In this document: in pieces, positions 1,427 to 63,031 of the stretch
How the letters are laid out: every line of letters starts with the position of its first letter
Position numbering within the stretch: the first letter of the stretch is position 1
NCBI GenBank assembly: GCA_020073365.1
Contig: JAIQFL010000003.1
Coordinates: forward strand, 1-64,000
DNA: 64,000 bases
DNA from: Terriglobia bacterium
Lineage (GTDB): Bacteria > Acidobacteriota > Terriglobia > Bryobacterales > Bryobacteraceae
Direction of reading: 5' to 3'
Position numbers and translations under genes: made by a program
The notes under the pieces: model-generated
The model's database searches: none
What the model saw: the letters and a program-made list of their open reading frames with translations, nothing else
What the model was told of the DNA's origin: nothing

Positions 1427-2485
1427 TTATCGCAGTTGGCCGATCGTTTCAGGAGCCGGCGCGAGAGCCCCGGTCACGGTGGAGGCCGATGGCACTCCGG
1501 CTTTGCTCACCCGGCTGAGAGCCGCTACCGGTGGCGCAAACAGCCTCTGAGTATTCTCGCCGCACTCACGTAACAGATGATAAGTCAACAGCAGTTGAGT
1601 GAGCGCCAGCGGGTCGCTCTGCCGCTTCACGCCGCGATCCTGATAGACTCCGAACTGATCGGCGCCGATCGGGTCTACGCCGGGCAGATGGCGCCAGATT
1701 GTCTCCTCCAGATATGCCGCCTGCTCCGGTGTGACGCTGCCGTCGATCTCAAGAATGTCCACGGGACGGCCGGTGTCGCGCCCCAACAAAAGGCGGATGC
1801 CCGTGTCCTGACTCTGCTTCTCGGACAGGTAACTCATGTCGGGATGAGGAATGGTCGGCCGCAGAATGAGCCGCACGTTGAGATGTCCATTGGCCCCTTC
1901 CGCGGACACGCCGTAGGGAGGGTAGAACTGCACGACGATATCGGCACGTTCGCGCTGCGTGCGAATGAACTCGCGGGAATCGGCTTCCCGTTTCTCCAAC
2001 TCGGCCAACACCTGGTCCACCGTGTAGCCGCGCTTGGCAGTATCCCGCCTGATCTTCCACACCCGGCGCAGATCCTCGGGCGGTTCGAGATACACCTTTA
2101 CGTCGTAGAACTGGCGCATCACGCCCGAATGAAATCCGAGCAGCCCTTCCACAATCACGAACTCCCGGGGCTTGATGTACTCCGGCCGGATCAGTGTGCC
2201 GGTGGCGTGTTCGTACACCGGTTTCAGGATCGGCTGGCCATAGTGCAGGCGCTCCAGTTGCAGTTCCAGAATATCGAGATAATTGCAATCCGGATCGAGC
2301 GCGGTGATATTCAGCGCCGCGCGTTGAGCCCGGTCGTATTTGTGATAGTCGTCCGTGCACATGTGCGTGACGCGGTGCGCGCCGAGCAGGTTGGTCAACC
2401 CCTGGGTGAGGGTCGTCTTCCCCGCGGCGCTGTCGCCCATGATGCCAAGCAGGACCGGTCTTCGGCCCGTCATTTTAGGACTCAT
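1427..2485 (-). CDS. prk: Phosphoribulokinase, class II-like
   Basis: Phosphorylates ribulose 5-phosphate with ATP to ribulose 1,5-bisphosphate, the RuBisCO substrate. The protein has 352 residues. The P-loop GDSAAGKTT is at residues 17-25 and the TDDYHKYDR segment near 44-52. The sequence (DDYH..DR, ALDP..NY, P.Y.H.TG) resembles the cyanobacterial/plant (class II) and actinobacterial enzymes more than the roughly 290-residue proteobacterial CbbP. The C-terminus carries a [16 protein letters not shown] stretch. AGAGGAG stands six bases before the ATG and overlaps the cbbX stop codon, so translation is probably coupled. No frameshift or missing motif was seen. Confidence 0.93.
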
Positions 2486-3461: not shown

Positions 3462-3914
3462 CTATCCTCTACCGTTTCCAGACTCCGCCCGCTCGCCGTC
3501 GTAGCGTTCGCCTTCGGGCTGGTCCGCCGCGTACGAGTGCAGCGTGTACCTGATGGCGCGGCCGGCCACTTCCTGGCGGTCGAGCCGGAAGCCGGGCTCC
3601 CGCTTCGGCCGGTTTACCAGGAAGGAGAGCGCCACCGTCTCCCGTCCTCTCACCGGATTGTTGGCATTGACCTTGATGTAGTGGTTGGGGAAGGCCTTCC
3701 GGCAAGCATTGATTTCGAACAGGATCGCAGCCGGGTCGAGCACTTCGAACATAGGAAGGGCCCACATGTCCCAGTAGGAGTTCCGCGGATGCGGATCGTC
3801 GGTGTACTCGATGCCGATCGACCAGCTATTCTTGATGCAATAGTCGATCTGACTGGCGATCTGTCGATCGGTCAAGTCGGGTAAAAAAGAGAAAGTGCCC
3901 TGCGTAAGTCTCAT
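3462..3914 (-). CDS. rbcS: RuBisCO small subunit, form I red type
   Basis: The small subunit caps the L8S8 RuBisCO hexadecamer. The real start is the ATG at 3914, preceded by GGAAGGA seven bases upstream; a longer open frame in the same register covers rbcL antisense-like sequence and is not used. The 150-residue protein opens with [16 protein letters not shown], contains [10 protein letters not shown] and [10 protein letters not shown], and ends in the region [20 protein letters not shown] followed by an extended tail. That C-terminal hairpin extension is characteristic of red-type (IC/ID) small subunits. It lies 14 bases after the rbcL stop. Confidence 0.96.
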
Positions 3915-3928
3915 AACGTTCCTTCCGC

Positions 3929-6287
<2,359 letters not shown>

Positions 6288-11036: not shown

Positions 11037-11984
11037 TCAGTGAACGCTGACCAGCGATTGTATGCTGGCCATCACCGCCTGCCAAGCGGGCGATTGCGGG
11101 TTGATCCCGTCAAAGTGACCAGCACTGTCCATTGTTAGCAGGCGAACCGGGTCGCCTGCCTTCTCAGCCGCGGCCACATACTGCTTGAACAGCGTGATCC
11201 ACGCCTCGCCAAGCGTGCCCGCTACGAATATCTCCTGTCTGGTCCCGATGGGCAGCAGCCCACTTGCCGAACCCTCTCGATAACGGCTAGGGAACTCCGC
11301 CGGCGTACCGCCGATGAACTGCGTGATCACCGGGCCACCGCACACCGACTGCTCGATCGCGCGGTCCGCTTCGAGATCCGGGGGACCATCGACACTCACG
11401 ACACCATTCAGCGGAAGTGGCGAATTCGTATACAGCATGCTGCTCTTCGGCAGCTTGCCTCGTGCACCTAACCACAACGCAAGTTGACCACCCGACGAAT
11501 GACCGACCGCCACCGCATGCTTAAGGTCCAGATGATAGCGAGGCGCCAGTTCGCGCAAATAGTCCGTCGCTCTGCTTAAGTCCTGGTAGGTCCCGGGCCA
11601 GCCGCCGCCCTCATTTCCGAGGCGACGGTATTCGACATTCCACGAGGCGATACCCGCTGTCGCAAGCGCCGCGGCGATCGGGCGCAGCAGTTCGAAGGAA
11701 GTGACACTTTCAGGCAGGTTGCGCAGATGGACCTCCCAACATCCACCATGGACAAGGATGGCAATAGGAAACTGCCCTGCACCAGCCGGCAAACGCAACT
11801 CACCAAATTGCAGCGGGCTCTTGCCGTAGGGAAGGCGCTCACTCGCAGATGGTGTCGCCTGCTTGACCAATTCCAGCGGATTCGTGGTCTGCCCTTGCAG
11901 CAGACACATGGGAAACAGCATTAGCGCAGCGAGCCGCTGATACGTGGAATTCCGGCTGGGGCCAGGCATGCTGCGGAATGGCAT
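11037..11984 (-). CDS. Secreted alpha/beta hydrolase (esterase/lipase-like)
   Basis: A 315-residue protein starting at the ATG at 11984, which has CAGGAG nine bases upstream; the longer open frame reaching 12395 lacks such support. A hydrophobic segment at residues 18-30 looks like a signal peptide. The HGG oxyanion motif is at 79-81 and the nucleophile elbow GHSSG at 161-165 (Ser163); a late DSAGHFDG supplies the likely catalytic His. It belongs to the BD-FAE/hormone-sensitive-lipase-like group of alpha/beta hydrolases and should cleave ester bonds of an unknown substrate in the periplasm. It is divergent from the following Oar receptor. Confidence 0.85.
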   Translation of the reverse strand: MPFRSMPGPSRNSTYQRLAALMLFPMCLLQGQTTNPLELVKQATPSASERLPYGKSPLQFGELRLPAGAGQFPIAILVHGGCWEVHLRNLPESVTSFELLRPIAAALATAGIASWNVEYRRLGNEGGGWPGTYQDLSRATDYLRELAPRYHLDLKHAVAVGHSSGGQLALWLGARGKLPKSSMLYTNSPLPLNGVVSVDGPPDLEADRAIEQSVCGGPVITQFIGGTPAEFPSRYREGSASGLLPIGTRQEIFVAGTLGEAWITLFKQYVAAAEKAGDPVRLLTMDSAGHFDGINPQSPAWQAVMASIQSLVSVH

Positions 11985-12321
11985 CGGCGATTTTCTCCTG
12001 AAGTCAATACTAGCAGACCCATGGCGATGTTCCTTCTCTTGATCCTTTATCCGAACCATCCGAACCCCCTGCCCGGGCCGATGGCGAGCGGTTGACGGGT
12101 AACCGGAAGTCGGACGGCTCCAGCGCGGCAAGTCGCCTCCGCCGGTCGAGACCTGGTACTCGGGACCCGGGTGGCCTTCGCACGACAGGGTAGGAGGTAG
12201 CCTGCGGGGTTGGAGTATAATCACTGCTAGCCAGGAAGCCAAAAAGGGAAACCTGGATAAGAGGACAATAGGGCCTATTTGCCCCGTGTTGATGGACGGT
12301 TTGGGCTCCAGGAGGTCAGTC
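11985..12321. other. Divergent intergenic region with candidate promoter
   Basis: This 337-base gap separates the hydrolase (leftward) from the Oar receptor (rightward). It contains a perfect TATAAT at 12216-12221 on the plus strand about 100 bases before the receptor start, without a good -35. No small gene was seen. Confidence 0.5.
12216..12221 (+). promoter_or_regulatory. Candidate -10 box of the Oar receptor gene
   Basis: TATAAT matches the sigma-70 consensus at all six bases and lies in the gap in front of the receptor gene. No TTGACA-like -35 stands 16-18 bases upstream, so this is only a candidate. Confidence 0.3.
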
Positions 12322-15300
12322 ATGTTTCGTCGCAGCGTTGTTTCGGTTTGGCGGCTACTCGCGTCAACCTTGTTACTTACTGTTGCATGCGCCATGGTTC
12401 ATGCTCAGGGTCTCGGAACCATTGTCGGAACGGTGACAGATCCGTCCGGCGCGGTGGTTCCCAACGCCGAAGTAAAACTGGTCGAGGAAGGGACATCCGC
12501 TTCGCGCGTGGCCACCAGCAATGCACAAGGTTATTACGTCTTTCCCTCGCTTCGTCCCTCGACGTATTCTCTCACCGTCGACGTGCGTGGGTTCGCCACC
12601 TTTACCCAGAAAGGCATCACCTTGCAGGCCGACCAGAGCGCCGCGGTCAACGTGAGCCTGACGGTGGCGGTAGCGGGCCAAGTGGTGAGCGTCAGCGCAG
12701 ATGCGTCTCTGATCACCACGGCCACAGCCACTCTGAGCGAAGTGGTGGATACGCGGCGGATTGTCGATCTGCCGCTGGATGGCCGAAATGCCGCCAGCCT
12801 GGCGCTCGCCACGGCCGGCACGCTGCTCGCGCCCAATGCCGACGGCGCGGATCAAGGGAATACCAAGACCTTTCCAACTGCCGTCCTGGTGAGCTCCAAC
12901 GGGGCGAGACAGAATCAAACCAGCTACCGGCTGGACGGCGCCACGAACACGGACATCTATACCAACGTCAACCAGCCATTCCCCAACCCGGACGCCCTCC
13001 AGGAATTCAGTGTCCAGACCAGCAACTACTCGGCGAAGTACGGAGGCAGCGCGGGCGGCGTGGTGAACGTCGTGACCAAATCGGGCACCAACGACCTGCA
13101 CGGTTCCGCCTTTGAGTTCGTCCGCAATGCCGATTTCAACGCGCGCAACTTCTTTGCGGCCAAGGTCGACCCGTTGAAGCGCAATCAATTCGGCGGAGCC
13201 TTCGGCGGCCCGGTGGACATTCCGCACGTCTACAACGGCAAGAACAAAACCTTCTTTTTCCTGAGCTACGAGGGCACGCGCATTAACACGATTGGAGGCA
13301 CATCGTCGGAATACGTGCCCACTCCCGCCGACCTGAACGGCGATTTCTCGGCGTACCTGAGCGCCTCCGACCCCGCCAATGCCATAGGCAAAGCGACCAC
13401 GATCGTCGATCCGCTGAGCGGCACTGCGTTCCCGAACAACCTGATTCCGACCAGCCGTTTCGATAAGGCCGCCCTGGCTTTCACCAAGTACCTTCCGGTG
13501 GGCGTGGGGAGTGGGCTGACCTACTACGCACTACCCACCATCCAGGATTTTGACGAGGCGACGGTAAGGGTCGATCACACCCTCGGCACCAAGGATCATC
13601 TGACCGGGCGATACTTTTTCGATCGCTTCGCCAACACGGGGTTCCTGAACCTGGCGAACTATCCGGCGCAAAGCAGCAACGCCGTCATCGATTCGCACAA
13701 CTTCATGCTCAACGAAACGCACGTCTTCACGCCGACTTTCCTGAGCGACTTCCGGGCCAGCGTCAGCCGCCAGGTCTCCAACCGGGGGCCGGCGGATGGC
13801 AGCATTGACGCCACCCAACTGGGCGTGAAGATGTACCAGGCGCCCGGCGACCACATTCTGGAATCCCTCAGCGTGGCCAGCTTTTTCAGCGTGGGGCAAT
13901 CCGACCCGGCTACCTTCACCCGCGACCAATACTCGCTGAGCGAGGATCTTTCGCTGGTGCACGGCAGTCACAACCTGATGTTCGGGGTGAATGCGATTCG
14001 CTCCTGGGTGATGATCCGGAACCAGTTCCATCAGCCGGGCGCGTTCGGGTTTACCGCCGATGTCACCAATCTCTCGATGGCCAGTTTCCTGCTCGGGTAC
14101 ATGCGCACTTTCCTGCAGGGCAACGGCGAGTTCAAGGACAACCGCATCAACAGTTTCGGGCTCTATTTCCAGGATGACTGGCATGCCACGCGGAACCTGA
14201 CGATGAACCTCGGCCTGCGCTTCGACCCGTTCTTCCCCTGGAAGGAGACCAAAGGCCGCACCGAGATTTTCAGCCCCAGCGCCTATGCCGCCGGCACGGT
14301 CTCAACCGTTTTCACCGGCGCGCCTCCGGGATTGCTGTTCCCGGGAGATCCCGGCGTTCCGCCTTATGGGAATTACGCGAGCTACAGAAACTTCGAGCCG
14401 CGCTTCGGTTTTGCCTACGACGTGGGGGGCAAAGGAAAGACCAGCATCCGTGGCGGCTTCGGGATGTTTTACGACTCGCTGCAAAACGGAATCTACAACA
14501 ACCGCTTTGTGGACACCAGCCCGTTCAGCGTTCAGGTGAACCTCAACCCGGTAAACCCCAACCCGCCGATTTCAAACATGGTACCGTTCAGCAACCCGTA
14601 CCTGGGGATCACGAATCCGTTCCCGGCGCCGTACCCTCCGCCAAAGAATATCGTGTTTCCTCTGCCGGATCTGGCGGCAAGCTATGACGTCGGTCACGGG
14701 GGAACCTACCAGACTCCGGTGACCTACCAATGGAACCTGACCATCGAGCAGCAGTTGAGGGGAGACTGGATGGTCCGGGCCGCTTACGTCGGTTCCCATG
14801 CTTCGCACGGGATGGAGAACGTGGAACTATCCCCCAACGTGTACCCGACGGGAAAGCACCTGTACCCGCAGTACAGCAACATTGCCATGGGCATGAACGA
14901 TATCAACTCCAACTACCACTCGCTGCAATTGACCGCACAGAAGCGGTTCAGCAAGGGATTCACGATTCTGGCCAACTACACCTGGTCGAAGTCCATTGAC
15001 GACTGGCCTTATGGCCAGGACATCACGACCGTGGTGGCGGGCGGCAACTCGCCGATCCCGTGGTACATGCCCGGGCGGCACCAATTCGACCGCGGTCCGT
15101 CGGACTTCGACCGCAAGCAGCACTTCGTTGCCTCGTTTGTCTACAACCTGCCGGCGCTCAGCAAGGCCCCCGCCGTTCTACGCTTTGTGGCGGGCGGATG
15201 GGGAATGACCGGCATCTTCAACGCGGAAACGGGCTATCCGTTCACCGTTACGTACGGCAAGGACGCCTCGGGAACCGCGCTTTCCTCGGACCGCGCCGTT

Positions 15301-15681
15301 CTGCTCAGCAACCCCACTTATGGGTCGGGCGCCTGCGGCACCGCCGCACCGTGCGTGGATTATCTGGTCCCGACCGCTTTCGGGGCGCCCGCGGCGGGGA
15401 CCTTCGGCAACATCGGCAAGGGCTCCCTGCGCGGTCCCAATTTGATCTCTTACAACGGCGGCCTATTGAAGGATTTTCCGCTGCGCAAGGAGCGTCTGAA
15501 ATTCCAGTTCCGGGCTGAGTACTTCAACCTGTTCAACAGGGTGAATTTCTCCAACCCGGCCACCTCGCTCACGGGCGCCGGCTTTGGCCGCATCACCAGC
15601 ACACTGGGCACGGGGGTTGGGATCACGGGGGCGCCGGGCGACCCGCGCATCGGCCAACTCGCCCTCAAACTCGTCTTTTAA
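12322..15681 (+). CDS. Oar-like TonB-dependent outer-membrane receptor (1)
   Basis: Large outer-membrane beta-barrel of the Oar type, thought to import or bind large substrates using TonB energy. The start at 12322 is chosen because CCAGGAGGTC directly precedes it and the next residues form a signal peptide ending at VHAQG; an in-frame start at 12286 lacks this. Residues about 33-115 are a carboxypeptidase-regulatory (CarboxypepD_reg) domain beginning GTIVGTVTDPSGAVVP. A plug follows with VDLPLDGRNAAS and KYGGSAGGVVNVVTKSG, then a long barrel ending in the aromatic C-terminus LALKLVF. About 1119 residues, complete. Confidence 0.9.
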   Translation: MFRRSVVSVWRLLASTLLLTVACAMVHAQGLGTIVGTVTDPSGAVVPNAEVKLVEEGTSASRVATSNAQGYYVFPSLRPSTYSLTVDVRGFATFTQKGITLQADQSAAVNVSLTVAVAGQVVSVSADASLITTATATLSEVVDTRRIVDLPLDGRNAASLALATAGTLLAPNADGADQGNTKTFPTAVLVSSNGARQNQTSYRLDGATNTDIYTNVNQPFPNPDALQEFSVQTSNYSAKYGGSAGGVVNVVTKSGTNDLHGSAFEFVRNADFNARNFFAAKVDPLKRNQFGGAFGGPVDIPHVYNGKNKTFFFLSYEGTRINTIGGTSSEYVPTPADLNGDFSAYLSASDPANAIGKATTIVDPLSGTAFPNNLIPTSRFDKAALAFTKYLPVGVGSGLTYYALPTIQDFDEATVRVDHTLGTKDHLTGRYFFDRFANTGFLNLANYPAQSSNAVIDSHNFMLNETHVFTPTFLSDFRASVSRQVSNRGPADGSIDATQLGVKMYQAPGDHILESLSVASFFSVGQSDPATFTRDQYSLSEDLSLVHGSHNLMFGVNAIRSWVMIRNQFHQPGAFGFTADVTNLSMASFLLGYMRTFLQGNGEFKDNRINSFGLYFQDDWHATRNLTMNLGLRFDPFFPWKETKGRTEIFSPSAYAAGTVSTVFTGAPPGLLFPGDPGVPPYGNYASYRNFEPRFGFAYDVGGKGKTSIRGGFGMFYDSLQNGIYNNRFVDTSPFSVQVNLNPVNPNPPISNMVPFSNPYLGITNPFPAPYPPPKNIVFPLPDLAASYDVGHGGTYQTPVTYQWNLTIEQQLRGDWMVRAAYVGSHASHGMENVELSPNVYPTGKHLYPQYSNIAMGMNDINSNYHSLQLTAQKRFSKGFTILANYTWSKSIDDWPYGQDITTVVAGGNSPIPWYMPGRHQFDRGPSDFDRKQHFVASFVYNLPALSKAPAVLRFVAGGWGMTGIFNAETGYPFTVTYGKDASGTALSSDRAVLLSNPTYGSGACGTAAPCVDYLVPTAFGAPAAGTFGNIGKGSLRGPNLISYNGGLLKDFPLRKERLKFQFRAEYFNLFNRVNFSNPATSLTGAGFGRITSTLGTGVGITGAPGDPRIGQLALKLVF

Positions 15682-26300: not shown

Positions 26301-29300
26301 TCAGAACTCCAGACGCAGGCCGAACTCGATCCAACGCGCGCTGTTAGTGCGATTGGGCGGCGTGTAGGTGCCCGTGATCACTCCGAAGGCCCCCTGGTTC
26401 TGCAGGTTGAGGCCCGGATTGTTGAAATTGGCATGGTTGAAGACGTTGAAGAAATCGGCCGAAAAGCGGGTGGTCACTCGTTCCGTGATCTTGGTGATCT
26501 TGCCGAAACTCACATCCATATTCTTGAAGGGCAGGCCATAGATGGGATTGCCCTTGCCGGTGCGCGTATCGCTGCTCAGATTCACAAAACGAACCTGCTG
26601 GAACACGGCGTCAGGGTTGCTGAACAGGTTCATTCCAGTGCCGTTGGCGCCGCCTGCGGTCGTGCCGGTCGAGGTGCCCACTACGCCATGGTTCAATCCT
26701 ACGCCGCTGATGGGACCGGTGAATATGGCTGCCGTACTGGGTGACAACTGCAGGCCGCCACCGAAGGCCGGTGCGTTTTCTGTGACAGTCAAGGGCAGGC
26801 CGGACCACGCCGTAATAATCCCCGAGGTGTACCAGCCTCCGATGATCTTGTCGACGAAATTCCTGGTGCTGAGCATGTGTCCTTTGCCGATCGGCAGGTC
26901 GTACACGTAGTCGGCATTGAATACGTGCCTCCGGTCGTATGACGAGGGACCGTAATCCACTCCCGGGTGGAAGCTATTCCCGTAAAAGCCGGCGTTGTTC
27001 TGGTTCGAAAGGCCGTCATCGAGCGCCTTGGAATACGTGTAGTTGGCCCGCACCGTAAGGCCGCGGGAGAGGCGCTTGGTCAAAGTCACAATCCCCGCCT
27101 GGTAGTTGGACTGGCCGATGTAAGTGCGCAGGAACTCCATTTGCGCCTGATCGTTGTTGTACAACGGCAGCCCAAGCTGGCGCCGGTAAGTGCCCAAGGT
27201 TGAGAAGAGATTGCTCACGCTCGCGTTTACGATGTTCGAGCGCTGCTGGCTGATCAGGTACGCGGTCGCAGTGCCGTTGAATCCCTTCAACGCCGCGAGT
27301 CCCGGCAACTGGTTCTCAAACCACGGCTGTGCGGCGGGAGTCTGGCCTGCGCGCAAGGCACTCGCGATATTATCATAGGCCTGCGCGAATGACTGGCCGG
27401 ACGCCTTGTCCACGAACATGTAGGGCGAAGACGTCAGGTTCACCGCTTGCGGCAGGTGACGCGCGGTGCGGCCCACGTAGTCGAATTCCACGATCATGTT
27501 GCCCGGCAACTCGCGCTGTACACTGAGGTCGACGTTATAGCTGCGCCCGATCTTGGTAAAGGGGTCAACTTGAAAAGACAGAGTCTCCCCGAAATTCGTG
27601 GCCGGAATTACGGGCGACGTAACCTTGGAGGGAGTAGGCAGCGGAAGGGTGCCATCCACGCCCACGCGGAAGTTAGAGAGACCCGGGTTGGCAGTACCCG
27701 CGGAAGCGTTGCAACCGGGTCCTCCCGCACCGGTAAGGTTGCATGCCGGCGTCTGGATGTTAATGGTCTGGTCGAACCCCACTCCCAGCATGGGGATTTC
27801 CACCGCTTGCACGGTGTTCGAACGGTCGTAAATGAGCCCGAAACCGCCGCGAATCGACGTCTTCCGGTCCCCCAGCAATCTGTTCAGGAAGCCGTTGTGA
27901 CCGGATGGGCTCCACGCGAAGGCCGCGCGCGGTCCGAGATTGCCCCAATCGATGTTATAAACCGGCACGTGGGCCAGATTCACCGGCGCGTAACCCACCG
28001 TCGGATTGTAGACCTGGCCCTGAAGCGCCATCTGCATCTTGGTCTGCAGGAACTTGTTCGGGTCGATCAACTGGTTTGTGGTGGCATCCAACATCACGGT
28101 CTGCAGATTGTTCTTTTCCGTGGGCGCGGTCTGCCAGCCGTACGACAGCCCGTAGGTAAGAGTCAGGTTGGGTTTCACGCGCCATGAATCCTGGATGTAG
28201 AAGTACGTGGCGTACTCCATAGTGTGGTTAACCAGATTGGTGCCGAACGGAACCGGGTTCAGGTTGGCATCGCGCACCGCCAGCACGTTGATGTTGTCTA
28301 TGAGGCCAAGCATCGACGCGTAATAGCGGCCCCAGTTGGTCAAGTCCGACGATTTCAGGCAGTTCGACGTGACCGAACCCCCGCATGTCAGAGGGGAGTT
28401 CAGCGATGGGATGTTGAGGAAGTCGCCCGACGCGTTGCCGTCAATGTTGGCCACCAGCGAGCTGATGGAGCCAACCACCTTGTCGGCGCGCACGTGGGTG
28501 AACGGGATCTGGTCGATGTTGGTGCCGAACTGGATGGTGTGTTTACCCCGGATCTTGGTCATGTCGTCGATGAACTGCCGGTCCTGACTGTAGGCGGCCT
28601 GGTAGCGGGCGCGCTGGGTGTCCATGTCAATCGGCGAATCGAGAAAGGCGCTGGTGCCCGAGCCGATGAGCAATGCGATGGGGCCGGCGGATGTGCTGGT
28701 GCCCGGAATATTCAACTGGCCGGCGGCAACCGTGGGAGACGTCGCCGCACTGGGGCTGTTATCGCGAACGAATCCGAACCGGAACACGTTGATCAACGTC
28801 GGCTGGATCTGCCACGTCAGCGCGCCCGAGATCAGCAGACCGCGCTGTGGGGTCTGAATGACCGATTGAGGCTGTCCGTTGACGATCGAGATATCACCGG
28901 AGCCGGTGGTGATGGAACGGAAGTATGTGTAACTGCCGTTGAAAGTAAGCTTGTTGCTGAAATTATGGTCCAGCCGCATCACGCCGTAGTCTGTCTGGAT
29001 GGGAGTCGGAATATTGGCCAGATAGGCGCCCGTGTTCAGACCATCGCCTCCCGAGAGGTTGGGTAATGGCATTAACGCCCACTGGGCCTTTACCGAAGGG
29101 CTCATTCCCAAGCCTCGCGGGTCGCACGCGCTATTTCCATTGGGCCCGCAGACTGCCGCGGTAGCGAGGTTGAACTGCTGGATGTTCCCGCTGGGGTCGC
29201 GGAACTCGACGATCCCCTGTTTCAAAGTGGCGGTCGGGACGGTGCGCTGCACCTGCGCGATGCTGGCGAAGCGGCGGCCTTCGAAGTTTGCGAAGAAGAA

Positions 29301-30212
29301 TGTCTTGTCCTTCAGAACGGGTCCGCCCACGCGTGCGCCGAACCGATTATCCCGGATGGCTGCCTTTTTGATGCCGGCGTGGTTGTTGTCCCACGTGTTG
29401 GAATTCAAAGCGGAGTTCTGAAGGTACTCGTACAGTGCGCCATGGAAGGCGTTGGAGCCGTGCCGCCCGATGAGGGTCATCTGGCCGCCCGAGGCGCGTT
29501 CGAAGTTCGCATCCGGGTTCGCCGTGGTCACTCGAAACTCTTCCACGCTGTCGGCGGGAGTCGGGACGGAGGTGCCGGTGGCGACGACGTTCTGCGTGAT
29601 GTCGACGCCGTCCAGGGTGACGGTGTTCTGATCGTCGATGGCGCCCGAGACACGCATCTGAAGCCCGTTGCCCCCGGCCACCACACCGGGCTGCAGGTTC
29701 ATCAACTCGGTTACATTCCGTTGCAGCGTAGGCAGACGCAGGATCGAGTCGGTGGTCAGCGCGTTGCCGATCTGTGCGTCCACTGTCTGCAACTGGGCCG
29801 TGGCGGTGGCACTTACCTCCACGACTTCTTTATCCCCCCCAACTTCGAGACGGATGGGCATCGGGACGCTCCTGTTCACCTCCACCACCACTCCCGAAAC
29901 TTCCGCGGTGCGGAATCCCGCCAGTTTGACCGTGATTTGATAGGTGCCCGGCATCACGTTAGGAAAGACATAGCCTCCGGACTCATTGGTCAACTGCGTC
30001 TGCATGGCATTGGTGCCGACGTTCAGCAGTTGCACTTCAGCTTTGGGCACCATGGCGCCCGTGGGATCGGAGACAGTTCCGACGATGGTTCCGGACGTGG
30101 AGCTTTGGGCAGCCGCGCCGGGTGCAAAGACGACGATACAGTATGAGGGGACAAGCGCCAGCAGGCATACCGCCCGGAAACGGTTAGCGACACACCCATT
30201 GTGTTGGCTCAT
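26301..30212 (-). CDS. Oar-like TonB-dependent outer-membrane receptor (2)
   Basis: The longest protein of the window, about 1303 residues. The ATG at 30212 has AAGGAG nine bases upstream; the frame is open to 30323 but the added residues are not a signal sequence. After a signal peptide ending AAAQS comes the carboxypeptidase-regulatory domain (GTIVGTVSDPTGAMVPKAEV), a plug region (LQRNVTELMNLQPGV and QNTVTLDGVDITQN) and a long beta-barrel ending EFGLRLEF. As with other Oar proteins the ligand is unknown; outer-membrane uptake of oligomers is the usual inference. No fused sensor is visible. Confidence 0.9.
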   Translation of the reverse strand: MSQHNGCVANRFRAVCLLALVPSYCIVVFAPGAAAQSSTSGTIVGTVSDPTGAMVPKAEVQLLNVGTNAMQTQLTNESGGYVFPNVMPGTYQITVKLAGFRTAEVSGVVVEVNRSVPMPIRLEVGGDKEVVEVSATATAQLQTVDAQIGNALTTDSILRLPTLQRNVTELMNLQPGVVAGGNGLQMRVSGAIDDQNTVTLDGVDITQNVVATGTSVPTPADSVEEFRVTTANPDANFERASGGQMTLIGRHGSNAFHGALYEYLQNSALNSNTWDNNHAGIKKAAIRDNRFGARVGGPVLKDKTFFFANFEGRRFASIAQVQRTVPTATLKQGIVEFRDPSGNIQQFNLATAAVCGPNGNSACDPRGLGMSPSVKAQWALMPLPNLSGGDGLNTGAYLANIPTPIQTDYGVMRLDHNFSNKLTFNGSYTYFRSITTGSGDISIVNGQPQSVIQTPQRGLLISGALTWQIQPTLINVFRFGFVRDNSPSAATSPTVAAGQLNIPGTSTSAGPIALLIGSGTSAFLDSPIDMDTQRARYQAAYSQDRQFIDDMTKIRGKHTIQFGTNIDQIPFTHVRADKVVGSISSLVANIDGNASGDFLNIPSLNSPLTCGGSVTSNCLKSSDLTNWGRYYASMLGLIDNINVLAVRDANLNPVPFGTNLVNHTMEYATYFYIQDSWRVKPNLTLTYGLSYGWQTAPTEKNNLQTVMLDATTNQLIDPNKFLQTKMQMALQGQVYNPTVGYAPVNLAHVPVYNIDWGNLGPRAAFAWSPSGHNGFLNRLLGDRKTSIRGGFGLIYDRSNTVQAVEIPMLGVGFDQTINIQTPACNLTGAGGPGCNASAGTANPGLSNFRVGVDGTLPLPTPSKVTSPVIPATNFGETLSFQVDPFTKIGRSYNVDLSVQRELPGNMIVEFDYVGRTARHLPQAVNLTSSPYMFVDKASGQSFAQAYDNIASALRAGQTPAAQPWFENQLPGLAALKGFNGTATAYLISQQRSNIVNASVSNLFSTLGTYRRQLGLPLYNNDQAQMEFLRTYIGQSNYQAGIVTLTKRLSRGLTVRANYTYSKALDDGLSNQNNAGFYGNSFHPGVDYGPSSYDRRHVFNADYVYDLPIGKGHMLSTRNFVDKIIGGWYTSGIITAWSGLPLTVTENAPAFGGGLQLSPSTAAIFTGPISGVGLNHGVVGTSTGTTAGGANGTGMNLFSNPDAVFQQVRFVNLSSDTRTGKGNPIYGLPFKNMDVSFGKITKITERVTTRFSADFFNVFNHANFNNPGLNLQNQGAFGVITGTYTPPNRTNSARWIEFGLRLEF

Positions 30213-30904
30213 CGAGTTTTCTCCTTGAATCTGATTGGTTTCGCGATACTGCAAAGGTAGGGTGCTGATGCGCTTCGGTCCGCGCAGCCGAGGGCCCCAA
30301 CCAACACCGACACTTCGCTCCAACTTAGCAAAGTCCCCTCAGACGGATAGGATTCCGCCCCGTGGCACACAAAAACTCCGTGAGCGACGTTTTGGGCGAT
30401 GGTAAAATTGATTTACGAAATTGTCAAGAGGCCCCTGCGTAAATTCTGACATAGGGGTTCGCTGGCAGTGGCCCCTGCACCATAAAACATCGTTAACTTA
30501 ACGTTAACTCTGGGGACTTCTGCCGCGATCCACCATAGTAAGCGCCTCTGGCGTCCCAGTGCGACCCGTCCCTACGGGCGTACTGATGGTACCGGTCCCC
30601 TCTCCGAGATCCATAACCGAAGCATACTTGTGGTCGCGCGACGATCGTGCCTATCCTGTGAATCGGGAACCCTATGCCCCATCTGTTTGGCATCATTCTT
30701 TGCATCTTGATCTTGGCCGGCCTCGCGGCATTGGTGAGGTTGGAGTACAAGCGCGCCCGGCAGGGTCCTCGCCGGTCATCAACGGTTTTTCTACGTCGAC
30801 CCGACAAACGCTCATCCCTGTCTTCGTCAGCCACGGCACAAAGTCAGAATCGCCCGCTTCAGCACGGAATTGGACACTGAGTCTGCCCCTGACTCAGGCC
30901 TCAC
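30213..30904. other. Intergenic region between Oar receptor 2 and the glycoside hydrolase-like gene
   Basis: About 690 bases. The part near 30385-30510 is AT-rich. It contains GGCCCCTGC twice about 40 bases apart and GTTAACTTAACGTTAAC near 30491-30507. A 68-codon plus-strand frame at 30674 could encode a tiny membrane protein and is listed separately. No RNA gene was recognised. Confidence 0.45.
30674..30880 (+). CDS. Possible small membrane protein
   Basis: A 68-residue frame beginning MPHLFGIILCILILAGLAAL, one clear hydrophobic helix, followed by a basic, low-complexity tail. The ribosome site is poor (GGGAACC) and the tail looks like noncoding sequence. No family was recognised. It may be the truncated start of a real membrane-protein gene or chance. 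Confidence 0.25.
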   Translation: MPHLFGIILCILILAGLAALVRLEYKRARQGPRRSSTVFLRRPDKRSSLSSSATAQSQNRPLQHGIGH

Positions 30905-56667: not shown

Positions 56668-59600
56668 TCACCAGATCAACCGCAGTCCGATCTGGAGCCG
56701 CCGCGCGTTGGTGCCGTCGGGGAAACCTTGCGACGCGGTACCCTGCCCGACATTGGACTGGTAAGTGAGCGTGGGAACGCCCGCCACTGAAGAGTACACA
56801 TACTCGCGCGTGTTCACGCTCGTAAAGAAGCGGTGGTTGAAGATGTTGAATGCGTCAAACGTGAACATGGCCTTGGCGCGTTCCTTGATCGGGAATATCT
56901 TGGAAATCCGCGCGTCCAACTTGGATTGCTCGCCAACATCCAGACTGTTAATCGGCAGGAACGGAACGCGGCCACCCAGACCGCCGCTGGTGTAGCCGTT
57001 CAGCGTCCCGTTGTTGGCCGAGGTGAAACCGGTCGGGGCCGGAGTGGTGGACACCTGAACCGTTGGGGTCGCGTGCGGAGACGAGTTGACGAAAGCCAGG
57101 AGCGCGAGTTGCCAGTTGTCGATCAGGTACCTGGCAGCGGCGTTCCCATTGTGGATAAACTTAGGAGCCCAAACCGCGCTCAGGCCCAAACGCTGGCGGA
57201 CGTCGAGAGTGGAAGTGCCTTTCTCGCCGCGGTAATCCCCGGGGATATAGGTCTGCGGGCCGCCGCTGGCGAAGATGTTGGGAGTACCGGCGCCCCCTTG
57301 GCCTTCATCGATCGCGTGCGACCACGTGTAGGAAACCGAACCGGTAAACGATTGGGACATGCGCTTATTCAACTGGAGCGCCAGGCCGTTGTACCAGCTA
57401 TTAAGACCGGCATCCACCACGTTGATACGGGCGTAGCGGGGATCCACGCGGTTCTGGCGCACATAGATGGGAGTGGTGTAAGAGCCGGTCTGGTTGCCGC
57501 CGGCGTCGTTGATGCGGTACGTGAGACTGCCCGCCGGAGGTCCGATATTGATGTCGTTGACCGAAGTCAGGTGCAAGCCGCGGCTCCAGATGTAGGAGGC
57601 CGTGAACGACAGGTCATTGGTGAGCTGGTGCTCAATCGCGAGGTCTGCCTGCTGGGTGTACGGAGTCCGGAAGTCCTTGGAGGCGATGTTCAGGCTGACC
57701 GATCCGGCGGGCGGATTGAAGTTGCCGCTGTTGGGGAGCACGTTGGGAAAGACCGGGCCATTGGCTTTGTCGCTGGCGTTCGAGGAATTCAGCGAGATGG
57801 CCTTCTGGTAGAGACCGTTGCCCAGGAAGAAGGTGTTGATGAGTCCTCCGGGATAGCGGCCGTTAAATATGCCGTAGCCGCCGCGGACGACGGTCCGGTC
57901 ATTGCGGCCGAGTGTGTAAGCAAAGCCGATGCGCGGAGCAAATTCCTTGTTATAGGTTGGAATGCGCCCGGTGGCGGGATAGTCCGGATTGGTAAGGGTG
58001 GGTTGCGGCAGGGACGTGTAGTCGTAGCGCACCCCGAGATTCAACGTCAGGCGCGTCGAGGCCTTGTATTGATCCTGCAAAAATACGCTGTAGTCCGTGA
58101 GGTACAGGTCGACTTCGGGGTTGCCGATCGTCTGCGTGAACGTAGACCAGTCCTTGTTGCCCACGGAGTTGCCGGAGAAGTCCGACGCCAGCGCCGTCCA
58201 ACTCGGAAAGGTGTAAGTGCCGGTTCGGTTGAACAGCAGGTTGGTGTAGTCCTCCGTCCGAATGACTTCGCCGCCCAACTTCAGCGTATGCCTGCCTTTC
58301 GTCCAGGTCAAGGTGTCGGCGTACGAAAAGCGGTTCTCGCTGGGGTTGGTGCGTGGGTAGTCGGTCGCCGTACCGAGTAAGCTCTGGCCTGTTACGTTGA
58401 TGCCCAGGAATCCAATGCCGGGTATCGCGAGTTGGTCGTTCGGATAATCGAATTGCTTGTCCTTGAACCAGCCGAAGCGGAATTCGTTGACCATGGTGTT
58501 GGAGGGGATCGCCGTCCAGGTGAAACGGCCGTACTTGGAGCGAACCGATGAGTTGACGTTGTTGCCGACGCCGTTGCCGTTGTTCAGCACGGCCTGGGTC
58601 TGCAAGCCGTTAGGCGAGACCCAGCGGAGCACGTTCAGGCTGGCGCTGAAGGAATTGCGCTCGGTGGGACGCCAGTCCAGCTTGCCGAACCCGAGATCCT
58701 GAGTCGCCGTGCGATCCAGGGTCTGAAACTGGCGATCCAGGAAGCGGCGGGCGGTTTCGCACTGCGCGGCGCTGGCGGTACAAGTGGCGATGAAGTTTCC
58801 ATTGGTATCGAACAGCGAGCTGCCGGCGGCCGTGATTGAGGCGATCAGCGGGAAATTGCGGCGCATGGCTTCGTAGTTGGCAAAGTAGAAGAGCTTGTCC
58901 TTGACGATCTTGCCGCCGGCGCTGGCCCCGAGCTGGTTGCGCTTTTCCTCCGGGTTGATTGTGGCGAATGTGTCCTTGGCATTGAAATCCTGGTTGCGGA
59001 AGAACCAGTAGCCGGTGCCGTGGAAATCGTTCGATCCGCTGCGCGTCACCGTGTTGACTACGCCACCGGTGGCGTGTCCGAACTCGGCCGAGTAGTTGTT
59101 CGAGACCACCTGGAATTCCTGCACAGCGTCCTGCGAAATCTGCGAGGTGATGCGGGTGCGCCCGGCGTTCTCGTTATAGTACTGTTCGGTGGTATCGTTG
59201 CCGTCGGTAAGAAAGGAGTTGCCGCCGGCGATGCCGCGGAAAGAGACCAGGCCGAACGTGCCGTCGGGCACCACGGAGGGAGACAACAGAACAAACGAGT
59301 CCACACGGCGGCCGTTGATTGGCAGATCCAGGATCTGGCCGCTGCCAATCACCTGCGACACATCGGTCTTGGTGGAGTCTACCAGGGGCGCGGTCGCTTC
59401 CACCTGAATCTGCGTGGCGGTGCCGGCCACTGTCAGCACTACGTCGAGGCTCAGATTCTGGCCCACCAGAACCTGGAAGTCCTTCACTTCATACGTTGCG
59501 AAACCTGTCTTGCCGATCGTCACGGTATAGCCGGTGGCGGGCACCAGCGACGGCGCAGTGAAGAGACCGGCCTCCGTCGTGTTGAGAGTTCTCTTAATAC

Positions 59601-59760
59601 CTTTGGATTCGTTGGAAACCACTACCTGAGCATCCGGCACGGCTGCACCGGAAGCATCGTGGACGGTTCCGGAAATCGCTCCCAAGCCGGCTACCGACTG
59701 AGCAAAGGCCGCGCAGGAGAGCGCCAATGAAAGGAGTGCTACTGCTGTTGCTTTTCTCAT
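56668..59760 (-). CDS. Oar-like TonB-dependent outer-membrane receptor (3)
   Basis: A 1030-residue receptor with AAAGGTCAG before the start and the signal peptide MRKATAVALLSLALSCAAFAQ. The CarboxypepD_reg domain (GAISGTVHDASGAAVPDAQV) is followed by ILDLPINGRRVDSFVLLSPSV and a plug (FQVVSNNYSAEFGHATG), then a beta-barrel ending LQIGLRLIW. The plug and much of the barrel are close to the neighbouring receptor (4), a tandem paralogue 217 bases upstream on the same strand. The ligand is unknown. Confidence 0.92.
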   Translation of the reverse strand: MRKATAVALLSLALSCAAFAQSVAGLGAISGTVHDASGAAVPDAQVVVSNESKGIKRTLNTTEAGLFTAPSLVPATGYTVTIGKTGFATYEVKDFQVLVGQNLSLDVVLTVAGTATQIQVEATAPLVDSTKTDVSQVIGSGQILDLPINGRRVDSFVLLSPSVVPDGTFGLVSFRGIAGGNSFLTDGNDTTEQYYNENAGRTRITSQISQDAVQEFQVVSNNYSAEFGHATGGVVNTVTRSGSNDFHGTGYWFFRNQDFNAKDTFATINPEEKRNQLGASAGGKIVKDKLFYFANYEAMRRNFPLIASITAAGSSLFDTNGNFIATCTASAAQCETARRFLDRQFQTLDRTATQDLGFGKLDWRPTERNSFSASLNVLRWVSPNGLQTQAVLNNGNGVGNNVNSSVRSKYGRFTWTAIPSNTMVNEFRFGWFKDKQFDYPNDQLAIPGIGFLGINVTGQSLLGTATDYPRTNPSENRFSYADTLTWTKGRHTLKLGGEVIRTEDYTNLLFNRTGTYTFPSWTALASDFSGNSVGNKDWSTFTQTIGNPEVDLYLTDYSVFLQDQYKASTRLTLNLGVRYDYTSLPQPTLTNPDYPATGRIPTYNKEFAPRIGFAYTLGRNDRTVVRGGYGIFNGRYPGGLINTFFLGNGLYQKAISLNSSNASDKANGPVFPNVLPNSGNFNPPAGSVSLNIASKDFRTPYTQQADLAIEHQLTNDLSFTASYIWSRGLHLTSVNDINIGPPAGSLTYRINDAGGNQTGSYTTPIYVRQNRVDPRYARINVVDAGLNSWYNGLALQLNKRMSQSFTGSVSYTWSHAIDEGQGGAGTPNIFASGGPQTYIPGDYRGEKGTSTLDVRQRLGLSAVWAPKFIHNGNAAARYLIDNWQLALLAFVNSSPHATPTVQVSTTPAPTGFTSANNGTLNGYTSGGLGGRVPFLPINSLDVGEQSKLDARISKIFPIKERAKAMFTFDAFNIFNHRFFTSVNTREYVYSSVAGVPTLTYQSNVGQGTASQGFPDGTNARRLQIGLRLIW

Positions 59761-59977: not shown

Positions 59978-62900
59978 CTAGAACGTGAACCGCGCCGATA
60001 CTTGCATGCGGCGGGCCTGGGTGCCGTCCGGGAATCCGGCGTCGGCAAGGCCTTGGCCAAATGCAGTCGGCGTATACGTGAGCACTCCTTTGGCCTGGGT
60101 GTAGGCCTGATTGGAGAGACTCGTGTCTGCGATGGTGTTGCTGAGGTTGAACACTTCGAAGTTGAGGTACAACCGGGCGCGCGTCTCGCCGATCGGAATG
60201 ATCTTGCTGAGGCGGGCGTCGGACCGGTAGGACGGAGGTGTGTACAGGTTGTTCATCGGCAGGAAGGGCACGCGGTTGCTTAGCCCGGAGCCATTCAGCG
60301 TGCTGTTGCTGAACATGCCGGTGACCGGCGTGTCGTTCATCCGGACGGTTTCGCTGCCGGCCACGCGGCCACTCTGCAGCGTGGTGATGGTGGAGAGTTG
60401 CCAGTTGTTCACCACGTACTTGAAGAAAGCGCCGTCGCGATGGGTGATCACAGGCGCCCACACGAAGTCGAAAACCATGCGGTGCCGCTGATCCTCGGAG
60501 CCGCTGGCTTTATCGGCCTTGTAGTTCCCGTTGCTCGACCAATAGCTCGCGCCGCTCAGGAACAGGTTGTTGGTGCTACCGCCATAGCTTTGGCCATCGT
60601 CGATCTCATGCGCCCAGGTATACGAGAGATCCGCCTGCAGCCCGTGGGAGAGCCGCTTGTTCACCTGCACGGTCAGGGCGTTGTAGAAGCTGTTGACGCC
60701 GTTCTCATCCTGGTAAATGCCGCTATAGCGAGTGTCCGGCCGCGTGCCCGTGTAAACCGGGGTGGTGTAGCTTCCCACCTGGTTCCCTTTGTCGTCGTTG
60801 ACGGCGTAAGTGAAGCTGGTCGAGTTCAGCGGAAAGTTCAGGTCCCTGACCCCATACAATTGAACGCCGCGGCTCCAGATGTAGGAGGCCGTGATGGCCA
60901 GTTCATTCCCCACCTGGCGCTGCAGGGCGATGGTGCCTTGCTCCGAGTACGGGGTCTTCAGATTGGGAGCGGCGAACTGAATACTGGAGGCGCTGATGTT
61001 TGCGCCGCTGGGAATGGCGTTAAGGGTGTTCGGGAATACCGGACCGGCCGCCAACTGCGGCGCCTGCGTCCTGGCCAGCGAAATGCTTGTCTGCGAAACG
61101 CCGTTACCTGTGAACAGGTTGTCGATCGTCCCGCCGGCGAAGCGCGCATAAAACATACCGTAACCGCCGCGCACCACGGTCTTGTCGTTCACGCGATAGG
61201 CGAAGCCGATGCGCGGCATCACGTTGTTGCCGGCGGAGTTAATCTGCCCGGTCTGTGGGTAGTCCTTGTTGAATGTGGTGGGTTGCGGCAGTTGGGCATA
61301 CTCGTAGCGCGCGCCGTAGTTCACTGTGAGCTTGGGGGTGACGCGCCACTGGTCCTGCAGATAGAAGCCGTAGTCGTTGATGGGGGCGTCCACCACCGGG
61401 TTTCCGAATGTCTGGGAATAGGAATTCCAATTCTTGGCGCCGGTGGTATTGTCCGTGTAATCCTGCGCGAAGGCCGTGACGGTCTGGTAGGTGTAGCTGC
61501 CGAAATAGCCGCTGATGTAGTAGGTGTAATCGTTGGTCGTGGCGATGTCGGCCCCCAGCTTGAGGACATGGTTGCCCTTCGTCCAGGAAGCGTGGTTGAC
61601 GAACTGGTAGCGCCGCTCGTTGGGCTCCACCCGTGGCAGGTACGCTGCCGGTCCCAGTGCCTGGCCTCCGGCCGAAACACCCAGAAGCCCCAGGCCCGGA
61701 CCCATCAATGCGTTGTTGAAGGTGTCCGCCTGGCGGTCCGTGGACCAGCCCATGCTGGCCTCATTCACGAAGGCGGAGTTCGGAACCGACGTCCAACTGA
61801 GCCTGCCGTTGCGTACGCGCACGGAGTCGTCGCCGTTGCCCGTAAAAGCGCTTCCGCTGGTGGACGAGGTCCCCGTCTGGATGCCGTTGGGTGACAGAAA
61901 GCGTTGATAGTTGAAGCTGGCGCTGAGGCTGTTGCGGTCCGAAAGGTGATAGTCGAGCTTGCCAAAACCCAGATCCTGGTTGGCTTGCCGCGGGATCAGC
62001 CCGAAGAAGCGCGGCAGCAGCGCGTTGATCGCAGAGCACTGCGCCGGAGTCGCGGGCGCGCCGCAGCCGATCCAGGTCTGGGCGTTAGTATCCACGATGC
62101 CCGCCCGAATGATGCTGGAGACCATCGGAAAGTTCCGACGCGTGAAGTCGCCATTGAAGAAGTAGAACAGCTTGTCCTTGATCAGAGCGCCGCCCAGGCT
62201 GGCCCCGGCCTGGTGGCGAACCTCGTGGGGGTTGAAGGTGGCATAGCGGTCGCGCGCATTGAGCGTGCGATTGCGGAAAAACCAATAGGCCGTGCCGTGA
62301 AGCTGGTTGGACCCGCTGCGCGTCACGGTGTTGACCACGCCGCCCATGGCGCGGCCGAATTCGGCCGAGAAATTCGCCGAGACCACCTGGAACTCCTGGA
62401 CCGCGTCCTGGGAGATCTGCGAGGCGATGCGGGTGCGGCCCGCGTTCTCGTTGTAGAACTGCTCGGTGGTGTCGTTGCCGTCCACCAGGAAGGAGTTTCC
62501 GGCGGCGACGCCGCGGAACGTCAGTAGGCCGAAATAGCCGTCGTTGGTGACGCCCGGCGTCAGCAGCACGAAGGAATCCACGCGCCGCCCGTTGATCGGC
62601 AGATCGACGATCTGCTTGTTGTCGATCACCTGCGAGACATCCGTCTTGGTGTCTTCGAGCAAGGGAGCGGCGCCAGTCACGTCGACCGCAATGGTGTTCT
62701 GGGCGACGGTCAGATTGACATCGAGGCTGATATTCTGGCCGACCTGGAGAATCAAACCCTTGACCTCGTACGGAGCGAAGCCGGAGGCGGTAACCGTAAC
62801 CCTGTAGCCGGCTGCGGGCACTAGAGCGGGCGCTGTGAAGAGCCCGGATTCATTTGTGGCAAGGTCGCGGACGGTCCCCGTGGCATCGTTCGAGATCAGG

Positions 62901-63031
62901 ACCTTGGCGCTGGGCACGACCGCCCCCGAAGGATCCCGGACGACGCCGGAGATTCCCGCCAGCCCGCCGGATTGTGCGAAGGCGGAGGCGGATACAAGCA
63001 GAACCAGTAACGCAACGATTTTGAGACGCAT
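59978..63031 (-). CDS. Oar-like TonB-dependent outer-membrane receptor (4)
   Basis: A 1017-residue receptor with GGTGAGG before the start and the signal peptide MRLKIVALLVLLVSASAFAQ. Regulatory domain GISGVVRDPSGAVVPSAKV, plug with IVDLPINGRRVDSFVLLTPGV and FQVVSANFSAEFGRAMG, and barrel ending MQVSARFTF. It is the upstream member of a tandem pair with receptor (3); the plug-to-early-barrel part is nearly parallel, while the C-terminal barrel differs more, as expected if the pair diverged in ligand choice. Confidence 0.92.
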   Translation of the reverse strand: MRLKIVALLVLLVSASAFAQSGGLAGISGVVRDPSGAVVPSAKVLISNDATGTVRDLATNESGLFTAPALVPAAGYRVTVTASGFAPYEVKGLILQVGQNISLDVNLTVAQNTIAVDVTGAAPLLEDTKTDVSQVIDNKQIVDLPINGRRVDSFVLLTPGVTNDGYFGLLTFRGVAAGNSFLVDGNDTTEQFYNENAGRTRIASQISQDAVQEFQVVSANFSAEFGRAMGGVVNTVTRSGSNQLHGTAYWFFRNRTLNARDRYATFNPHEVRHQAGASLGGALIKDKLFYFFNGDFTRRNFPMVSSIIRAGIVDTNAQTWIGCGAPATPAQCSAINALLPRFFGLIPRQANQDLGFGKLDYHLSDRNSLSASFNYQRFLSPNGIQTGTSSTSGSAFTGNGDDSVRVRNGRLSWTSVPNSAFVNEASMGWSTDRQADTFNNALMGPGLGLLGVSAGGQALGPAAYLPRVEPNERRYQFVNHASWTKGNHVLKLGADIATTNDYTYYISGYFGSYTYQTVTAFAQDYTDNTTGAKNWNSYSQTFGNPVVDAPINDYGFYLQDQWRVTPKLTVNYGARYEYAQLPQPTTFNKDYPQTGQINSAGNNVMPRIGFAYRVNDKTVVRGGYGMFYARFAGGTIDNLFTGNGVSQTSISLARTQAPQLAAGPVFPNTLNAIPSGANISASSIQFAAPNLKTPYSEQGTIALQRQVGNELAITASYIWSRGVQLYGVRDLNFPLNSTSFTYAVNDDKGNQVGSYTTPVYTGTRPDTRYSGIYQDENGVNSFYNALTVQVNKRLSHGLQADLSYTWAHEIDDGQSYGGSTNNLFLSGASYWSSNGNYKADKASGSEDQRHRMVFDFVWAPVITHRDGAFFKYVVNNWQLSTITTLQSGRVAGSETVRMNDTPVTGMFSNSTLNGSGLSNRVPFLPMNNLYTPPSYRSDARLSKIIPIGETRARLYLNFEVFNLSNTIADTSLSNQAYTQAKGVLTYTPTAFGQGLADAGFPDGTQARRMQVSARFTF

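Follow-up and report, generated by a model that had tools for sequence, protein, structure and literature searches.

A 64,000-nucleotide stretch of a Terriglobia bacterium genome (hereafter the window, which opens an 89 kb contig) carries a red-type form I RuBisCO cluster whose phosphoribulokinase (Prk) is a member of the class II-like family PRK07429. We consider it very likely both that this predicted kinase is active and supplies the RuBisCO encoded beside it, and that the short class I enzyme (CbbP) replaced the class II-like one near the origin of form IC RuBisCO. A first-pass annotation had paired the gene with red-type RuBisCO, placed it in the class II-like branch and taken the combination as a sign that the operon was put together from different sources or came from a Gram-positive or Chloroflexi-like donor. 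The mismatch is true: the window has a class II-like Prk, yet its RbcL is sister to that of form IC operons with class I CbbP. Its direction, however, is probably the reverse of the one first supposed, class I being the later replacement and the window's kinase not the newcomer.

The features of the cluster are listed in Table 1. All lie on one strand in the order rbcL-rbcS-cbbX-prk, followed by tkt, with gaps of 9, 10, and 14 nt among prk, cbbX, rbcS, and rbcL and a spacing of 169 nt between prk and tkt. The prk reading frame has the position and length first assigned to it and is on the minus strand; the plus-strand frame at the same coordinates is interrupted by a stop. The rbcL frame stays open upstream as far as a TTG at 5458, and an NCBIfam scan of 3462-3950 returned no family for rbcS. 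With rbcL-rbcS and CbbX side by side, the cluster is a red-type form I RuBisCO operon, and the pairing with prk that the annotation described holds.

Table 1. Genes of the RuBisCO cluster in the window and the basis of each assignment.
Feature	Coordinates	Strand	Basis
prk, class II-like phosphoribulokinase, 352 aa	1427..2485	-	ATG-to-stop ORF, family scores, structure model
cbbX, red-type RuBisCO activase, 318 aa	2495..3451	-	TIGR02880 482.6 bits, cut-off 459.25
rbcS, RuBisCO small subunit, 150 aa	3462..3914	-	tblastn/phmmer to rbcS of related and annotated loci
rbcL, red-type form I RuBisCO large subunit, 483 aa from ATG	3929..5380	-	family scan, RbcL tree
tkt, transketolase, 5' part, 419 codons, cut by contig start	1..1257	-	phmmer with Afipia tkt, 378 bits

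Judging from family, residues, and gene order, Prk would use ATP to convert ribulose 5-phosphate to ribulose 1,5-bisphosphate (class I CbbP catalyzes the same reaction), which would feed the red-type RuBisCO of the same cluster; CbbX would reactivate that RuBisCO and transketolase would help in pentose regeneration, giving the cluster a presumed role in CO2 fixation. The genome also encodes a full-length [NiFe]-hydrogenase large subunit (720.7 bits to PF00374; 581 bits against an NCBIfam cut-off of 600 bits), so that hydrogen could supply electrons.

The assignment of the kinase is clear: it scores 412.5 bits against PRK07429 (NF005655; cut-off 236), and it fails the class I model PRK15453 (NF011997) at 32.5 bits against a cut-off of 362. 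At 352 residues vs. about 290 it also lies outside the class I clade. Both sequence signatures that had been singled out, the P-loop GDSAAGKTT and the DDYH..DR segment (here DDYHKYDR), are present, as are all the segments of a class II-like Prk (P-loop, DDYH..R, WK..RD...RG), whose residues we take to have their catalytic roles in this protein; K144, R147, D148, R152, H48, and R52 are invariant across 43 aligned rows, canonical class II included. Identity over aligned columns is highest with three members of the same family (L002, L003, L005; 71-75%), followed by kinases adjoining form I-prime or deep form I RuBisCO (61-68%), the cyanobacteria-specific group (55%), Mycobacterium (48%), Meiothermus (46%), canonical cyanobacterial Prk (37-38%), Udk-like proteins (29-30%), and class I (21-24%, four rows).

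The structure model (pLDDT 84.4, built from 37 rows) ranked three cyanobacteria-specific PRK structures first (PDB 9qko, 9qkp, 9qkn; 53-55% identity, TM about 0.8 for the window protein and 0.9 for the chain), then archaeal and canonical Prk; we found no paper on these three structures in the literature searched. The cyanobacterial relatives share the Cys-less P-loop of the window Prk but differ in having no RuBisCO gene in the locus DNA examined (three loci). The actinobacterial-like C-terminus proposed for the window protein gains no support: the single actinobacterial relative found, a 314-residue protein on a Mycobacterium plasmid, stops before the tail in question, and the model gives residues 327-352 of the window protein a pLDDT below 50.

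Plant-type Prk has two regulatory cysteine pairs (PMC9978339). The window Prk has cysteines only at 43, 67, and 308; in the alignment to PDB 6gve, which keeps both N-terminal redox cysteines, Ala21 stands at the P-loop Cys19 and Cys43 at Cys41, so that one of the two N-terminal cysteines is kept, and the C-terminal pair is absent from the whole protein. The lack of a P-loop cysteine extends to 52 of 53 rows (GDSAAGKTT in 29, the ending -ST in 22 and -NT in one), the remaining row being most likely a protein (L048) that starts at residue 100. A search for CP12 (PF02672) gave no match in the host genome, and among 14 control genomes only S. elongatus was positive. Because the thioredoxin cysteine pairs are incomplete or missing and CP12 gave no match, the window Prk probably works without thioredoxin/CP12 light/dark switching. 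Canonical cyanobacterial and plant Prk differs in this respect and in its low identity, although the Calothrix enzyme also passes PRK07429 (449.5 bits) and has the catalytic segment in common with the window. The large group of Prk without thioredoxin cysteines may suit uses that need a Prk without a light switch.

We scanned one genome per species (84,980 species) with the window Prk, a search that reaches close relatives only, and obtained 47 loci: 26 in Chloroflexota, 14 in Acidobacteriota, three in Cyanobacteriota, two in Myxococcota (titled Deltaproteobacteria), and one each in Verrucomicrobiota and Planctomycetota (phyla from record titles), with none of the 47 in Pseudomonadota. A complete red-type rbcL-rbcS-cbbX set is clustered with prk in 24 of them and part of such a set stands at a contig end in five; nine have deep form I rbcL-rbcS beside prk, five have rbcL without rbcS, the three cyanobacterial loci are those described above, and one locus is cut off. 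In two of the 24 complete sets (L013 and L047) tkt is placed between cbbX and prk. The rbcL that adjoins the kinase without rbcS (L021, L022, L025, L035, L007) is form I-prime-like; that of L007 is cut by the contig start, and one of these loci is titled Planctomycetaceae.

Since these loci had been picked through Prk, we sampled a second time by RbcL alone. Among 396 Acidobacteriota genomes, RbcL (E <= 1e-100) was found in six, and the same six pass the PRK07429 cut-off; among 400 genomes of Chloroflexota (the phylum of Oscillochloris fontis) it was found in 28, and 25 of these pass, some with a Prk distant from that of the window (phmmer 220-400 bits vs. about 500). Two Chloroflexota genomes (G763 and G859) have a class I CbbP, which scores 445 and 448 bits against that of Afipia. 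One RbcL-positive genome (G574), whose contig stops with no kinase gene on it, gave neither kinase class, class I having been sought near rbcL only. In the sampled Acidobacteriota and Chloroflexota, a Prk of the PRK07429 family is the usual partner of form I RuBisCO. The annotation's view of Proteobacteria was borne out: class I CbbP was present in all eight red-type proteobacterial loci (all proteobacterial rows being plasmid-borne), and a ninth (L055) is not red-type and has no kinase. Its expectation came from that phylum and the host is an acidobacterium, so the kinase is odd only against that comparison; it is ordinary for an acidobacterial host. Of 364 plasmid records matched by RbcL, 115 were at least 60% identical, and 21 records matched the window Prk, the best two being red-type operons of Mycobacterium and Allomeiothermus.

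Several neighboring arrangements came to light. In the two class I Chloroflexota, rbcL, rbcS, cbbX, fbp, and class I cbbP form a proteobacterial-style cluster (L154, L155), with RbcL inside the form IC clade and CbbP among other class I rows. Another Chloroflexota locus (L164 of G867, 11415-15615) has two distinct class II-like prk genes flanking tkt, with 337 and 510 bits to the window Prk. Oscillochloris fontis (L092, contig C78) has an additional Prk-like protein 35% identical to the window Prk, a type also found in G758 (C95) and G573 (C91) that scores 220-226 bits, slightly below the PRK07429 cut-off. Plasmid loci of Azospirillum and Hirschia (L108, L109) that contain glycosyltransferase genes encode ~700-aa "phosphoribulokinase" proteins, with the Prk-like domain in the C-terminal part.

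In a tree of 49 RbcL rows, the window groups with its three family members (99/92), joined next by L012 and L105 (100/97) and then by two Myxococcota (99/94). These eight rows have the class I Proteobacteria as their sister group, the 16 rows holding together at 98/97. Non-plasmid rows had entered this tree and others of its kind through the window Prk or family, a bias that is removed in part in a 71-row tree to which RbcL-chosen Chloroflexota were added. There, an 18-row clade (99) consists of the window's eight and ten class I rows (eight Proteobacteria, two Chloroflexota), the ten standing on one side of a single branch (support 63), and kinase class switches once. The window is sister to the class I-bearing form IC clade sensu stricto, not inside it, in both trees. 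The lower branches (form I-prime, deep form I, the genome G801, and Meiothermus with the Acidobacteriota family f13) are all class II-like. With a single change of class on the RbcL tree and class II-like kinases on the deeper branches, class I is probably the replacement; the class I enzyme would have displaced the class II-like one near the form IC origin, and the window's clade would have retained the older kinase. Placing class I outside all other red-type rows is rejected by the RbcL data (p 0.0007 in one test, p 6e-5 in another), and class II-like is the older state under either RbcL arrangement considered below.

In the Prk tree (49 rows) the window again joins L002, L003, and L005 (100/100), and the Prk data accept the window's 8-row RbcL clade (AU p 0.39), which makes a separate prk donor unnecessary. 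In a 37-row tree of all Prk classes, class I is a single clade of ten rows (100) whose long branch (9.13 changes per column) joins somewhere among the class II-like rows, its exact position being unsure, and the window stays with its family members (98). The Prk data also accept form I-prime and deep form I kinases apart from the red-type ones (p 0.27; p 0.16), f13 with Meiothermus (p 0.089), and Acidobacteriota as a single clade (p 0.077). The trees that the annotation had proposed as its check, with Prk and RbcL both branching among class I operons as the refuting outcome, did not give that outcome: RbcL is sister to those operons, but Prk is outside the class I clade. As whole topologies, the Prk tree is rejected on RbcL data by the AU test and vice versa in both sets (38 and 24 rows; Robinson-Foulds distances 38 of 70 and 16 of 42), although Prk accepts the window's own RbcL clade. 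The whole-topology test used a simple model and quick trees in which many nodes are weak, and we therefore relied on the tests of named clades. Two f13 loci (L102 and L103, of G080 and G039) have the order prk-tkt-rbcL-rbcS-cbbX; their RbcL and CbbX group with Meiothermus, and their Prk is nearer the window's type.

That a form IC ancestor with class I CbbP took up a class II-like prk, perhaps together with cbbX, from a Chloroflexota-like donor would explain the position of the window RbcL beside class I operons, and CbbX lends it something: the window CbbX stays with the same three family members but groups with non-proteobacterial, Chloroflexota-like rows, and its data favor joining the window to the remaining class II-like rows over joining it to Proteobacteria (p for the arrangement seen with RbcL 0.004 if Mycobacterium is included and 0.062 if it is left out). 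The RbcL data, when the window's clade is forced together with the other class II-like rows, reject that shared history when 59 rows are analyzed with a simpler model (AU p 0.002, SH 0.08) but not in smaller sets (p 0.09 with 49 rows and Mycobacterium, Meiothermus, and f13 left free; p 0.198 with 35 rows and no Mycobacterium). RbcS does not reject a history shared with CbbX (p 0.318) and decides neither arrangement. Mycobacterium itself, forced to one side, gives strong and opposite site-wise signals (AU p 0.001 for RbcL, p 0.0008 for CbbX); without it neither RbcL nor CbbX gives p <0.05, so we do not claim the conflict as proven. It is a mild one, and the Chloroflexota-like affinity of CbbX may reflect a weaker mosaicism. 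For the kinase, the uptake described above is improbable: Prk accepts the RbcL clade, and with class II-like kinases on the deeper RbcL branches a swap into the window's lineage costs one extra change compared with a single class I swap. After the trees and AU tests we set it aside as the main reading, though the larger RbcL set rejects the shared arrangement.

That this genome recently acquired the entire cluster from a different phylum is a little less improbable, though still unlikely. CbbX is patchy (four of 101 family genomes, and no match in one genome of the same genus), and the PRK07429 cut-off is passed in only the six genomes of the phylum counted above; yet in each of the Prk, RbcL, and CbbX trees the window joins L002, L003, and L005, GC is 0.598 in the first 5458 bases and 0.612 in the rest of the window, and third-position GC is close as well (0.72-0.78 in four operon genes, 0.77-0.84 in six other window genes). 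Composition within the window gives no sign of recent HGT. It is most improbable that the gene is a uridine kinase or another sugar kinase merely adjoining RuBisCO. The protein is of the PRK/Udk superfamily, a relative in Methylacidiphilum fumariolicum is labeled "udk" (PMC3404531), and two Udk models give 87.6 bits (TIGR00235) and 98.9 bits; these scores are, however, far below the cut-offs of 220.3 and 180, the PRK07429 score is far above its own, W143-K144 is as in class II Prk and unlike three Udk-like rows, the genome has no PF00485 match besides this gene, and its clustering with RuBisCO genes is kept across phyla.

Replacement by class I thus remains the preferred reading, and the same arrangement of genes is known elsewhere. 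In M. fumariolicum SolV, the locus tags 70008-70010 are CbxX, Prk (named udk), and transketolase, as in the window, and 13C work cited in the same paper is said to show Calvin-cycle CO2 fixation by this organism (PMC3404531). In Methylacidiphilum sp. Yel (L019) the order rbcL-rbcS-cbbX-prk-tkt is that of the window and Prk is 65-68% identical; this Methylacidiphilum system differs in its phylum, in an RbcL outside the window's clade, and in an additional class I kinase (cfxP in SolV). In the genome of L019 (G014) the class II-like kinase is in the RuBisCO cluster and the class I kinase on a different contig (L089). The red-type cbb operon of Thermus brevis PS18 and Allomeiothermus silvanus (L107) also has the order rbcL-rbcS-cbbX-prk, and the L107 Prk passes PRK07429 (403.6 bits) like that of the window but is only 46% identical; unlike the window cluster, the operon adds glpX, rpe, and fba. 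T. brevis is reported to grow autotrophically, with Prk higher in autotrophic cells (PMC13019369). Form IC operons, the nearest by RbcL, carry a class I CbbP that is only 21-24% identical to the window Prk in the four rows compared.

Form I RuBisCO with Prk is described in Chloroflexota (PMC5826079), in Ktedonobacteria, where a form I clade has been proposed that covers six phyla, Acidobacteriota among them (PMC13374853), in Anaerolineae as form I-prime (PMC9802188), and in Methylacidiphilum and Thermus in the papers cited above. The pairing is thus known, and the operon of this acidobacterium adds a member to it; what it corrects is an expectation drawn from Proteobacteria, for in our samples kinase class tracks RuBisCO lineage, not host phylum. 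The window's clade offers a sister lineage that may help to date and explain the probable kinase change in form IC. We give about even chances to a more specific history, in which this clade of Acidobacteriota and Myxococcota is the surviving pre-swap sister of form IC, class II-like Prk having been present from form I-prime onward and displaced once by class I at the form IC base, after which the operon would have moved between phyla (the two Chloroflexota). If so, the point of the swap, and any simultaneous change of CbbX, could be read from the window's clade. We found no published account of a kinase swap in the literature searched; one may exist elsewhere.

The host genome (705 contigs, completeness 100%, contamination 6.05%) measures 12.1 Mb, a size that is unremarkable given a same-genus genome of 11.5 Mb. 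Four large ORFs elsewhere in the window (12286-15681, 26301-30323, 56668-59760, and 59978-63031) presumably resemble the TonB-dependent carboxypeptidase-regulatory receptors that we take to be typical of Acidobacteriota.
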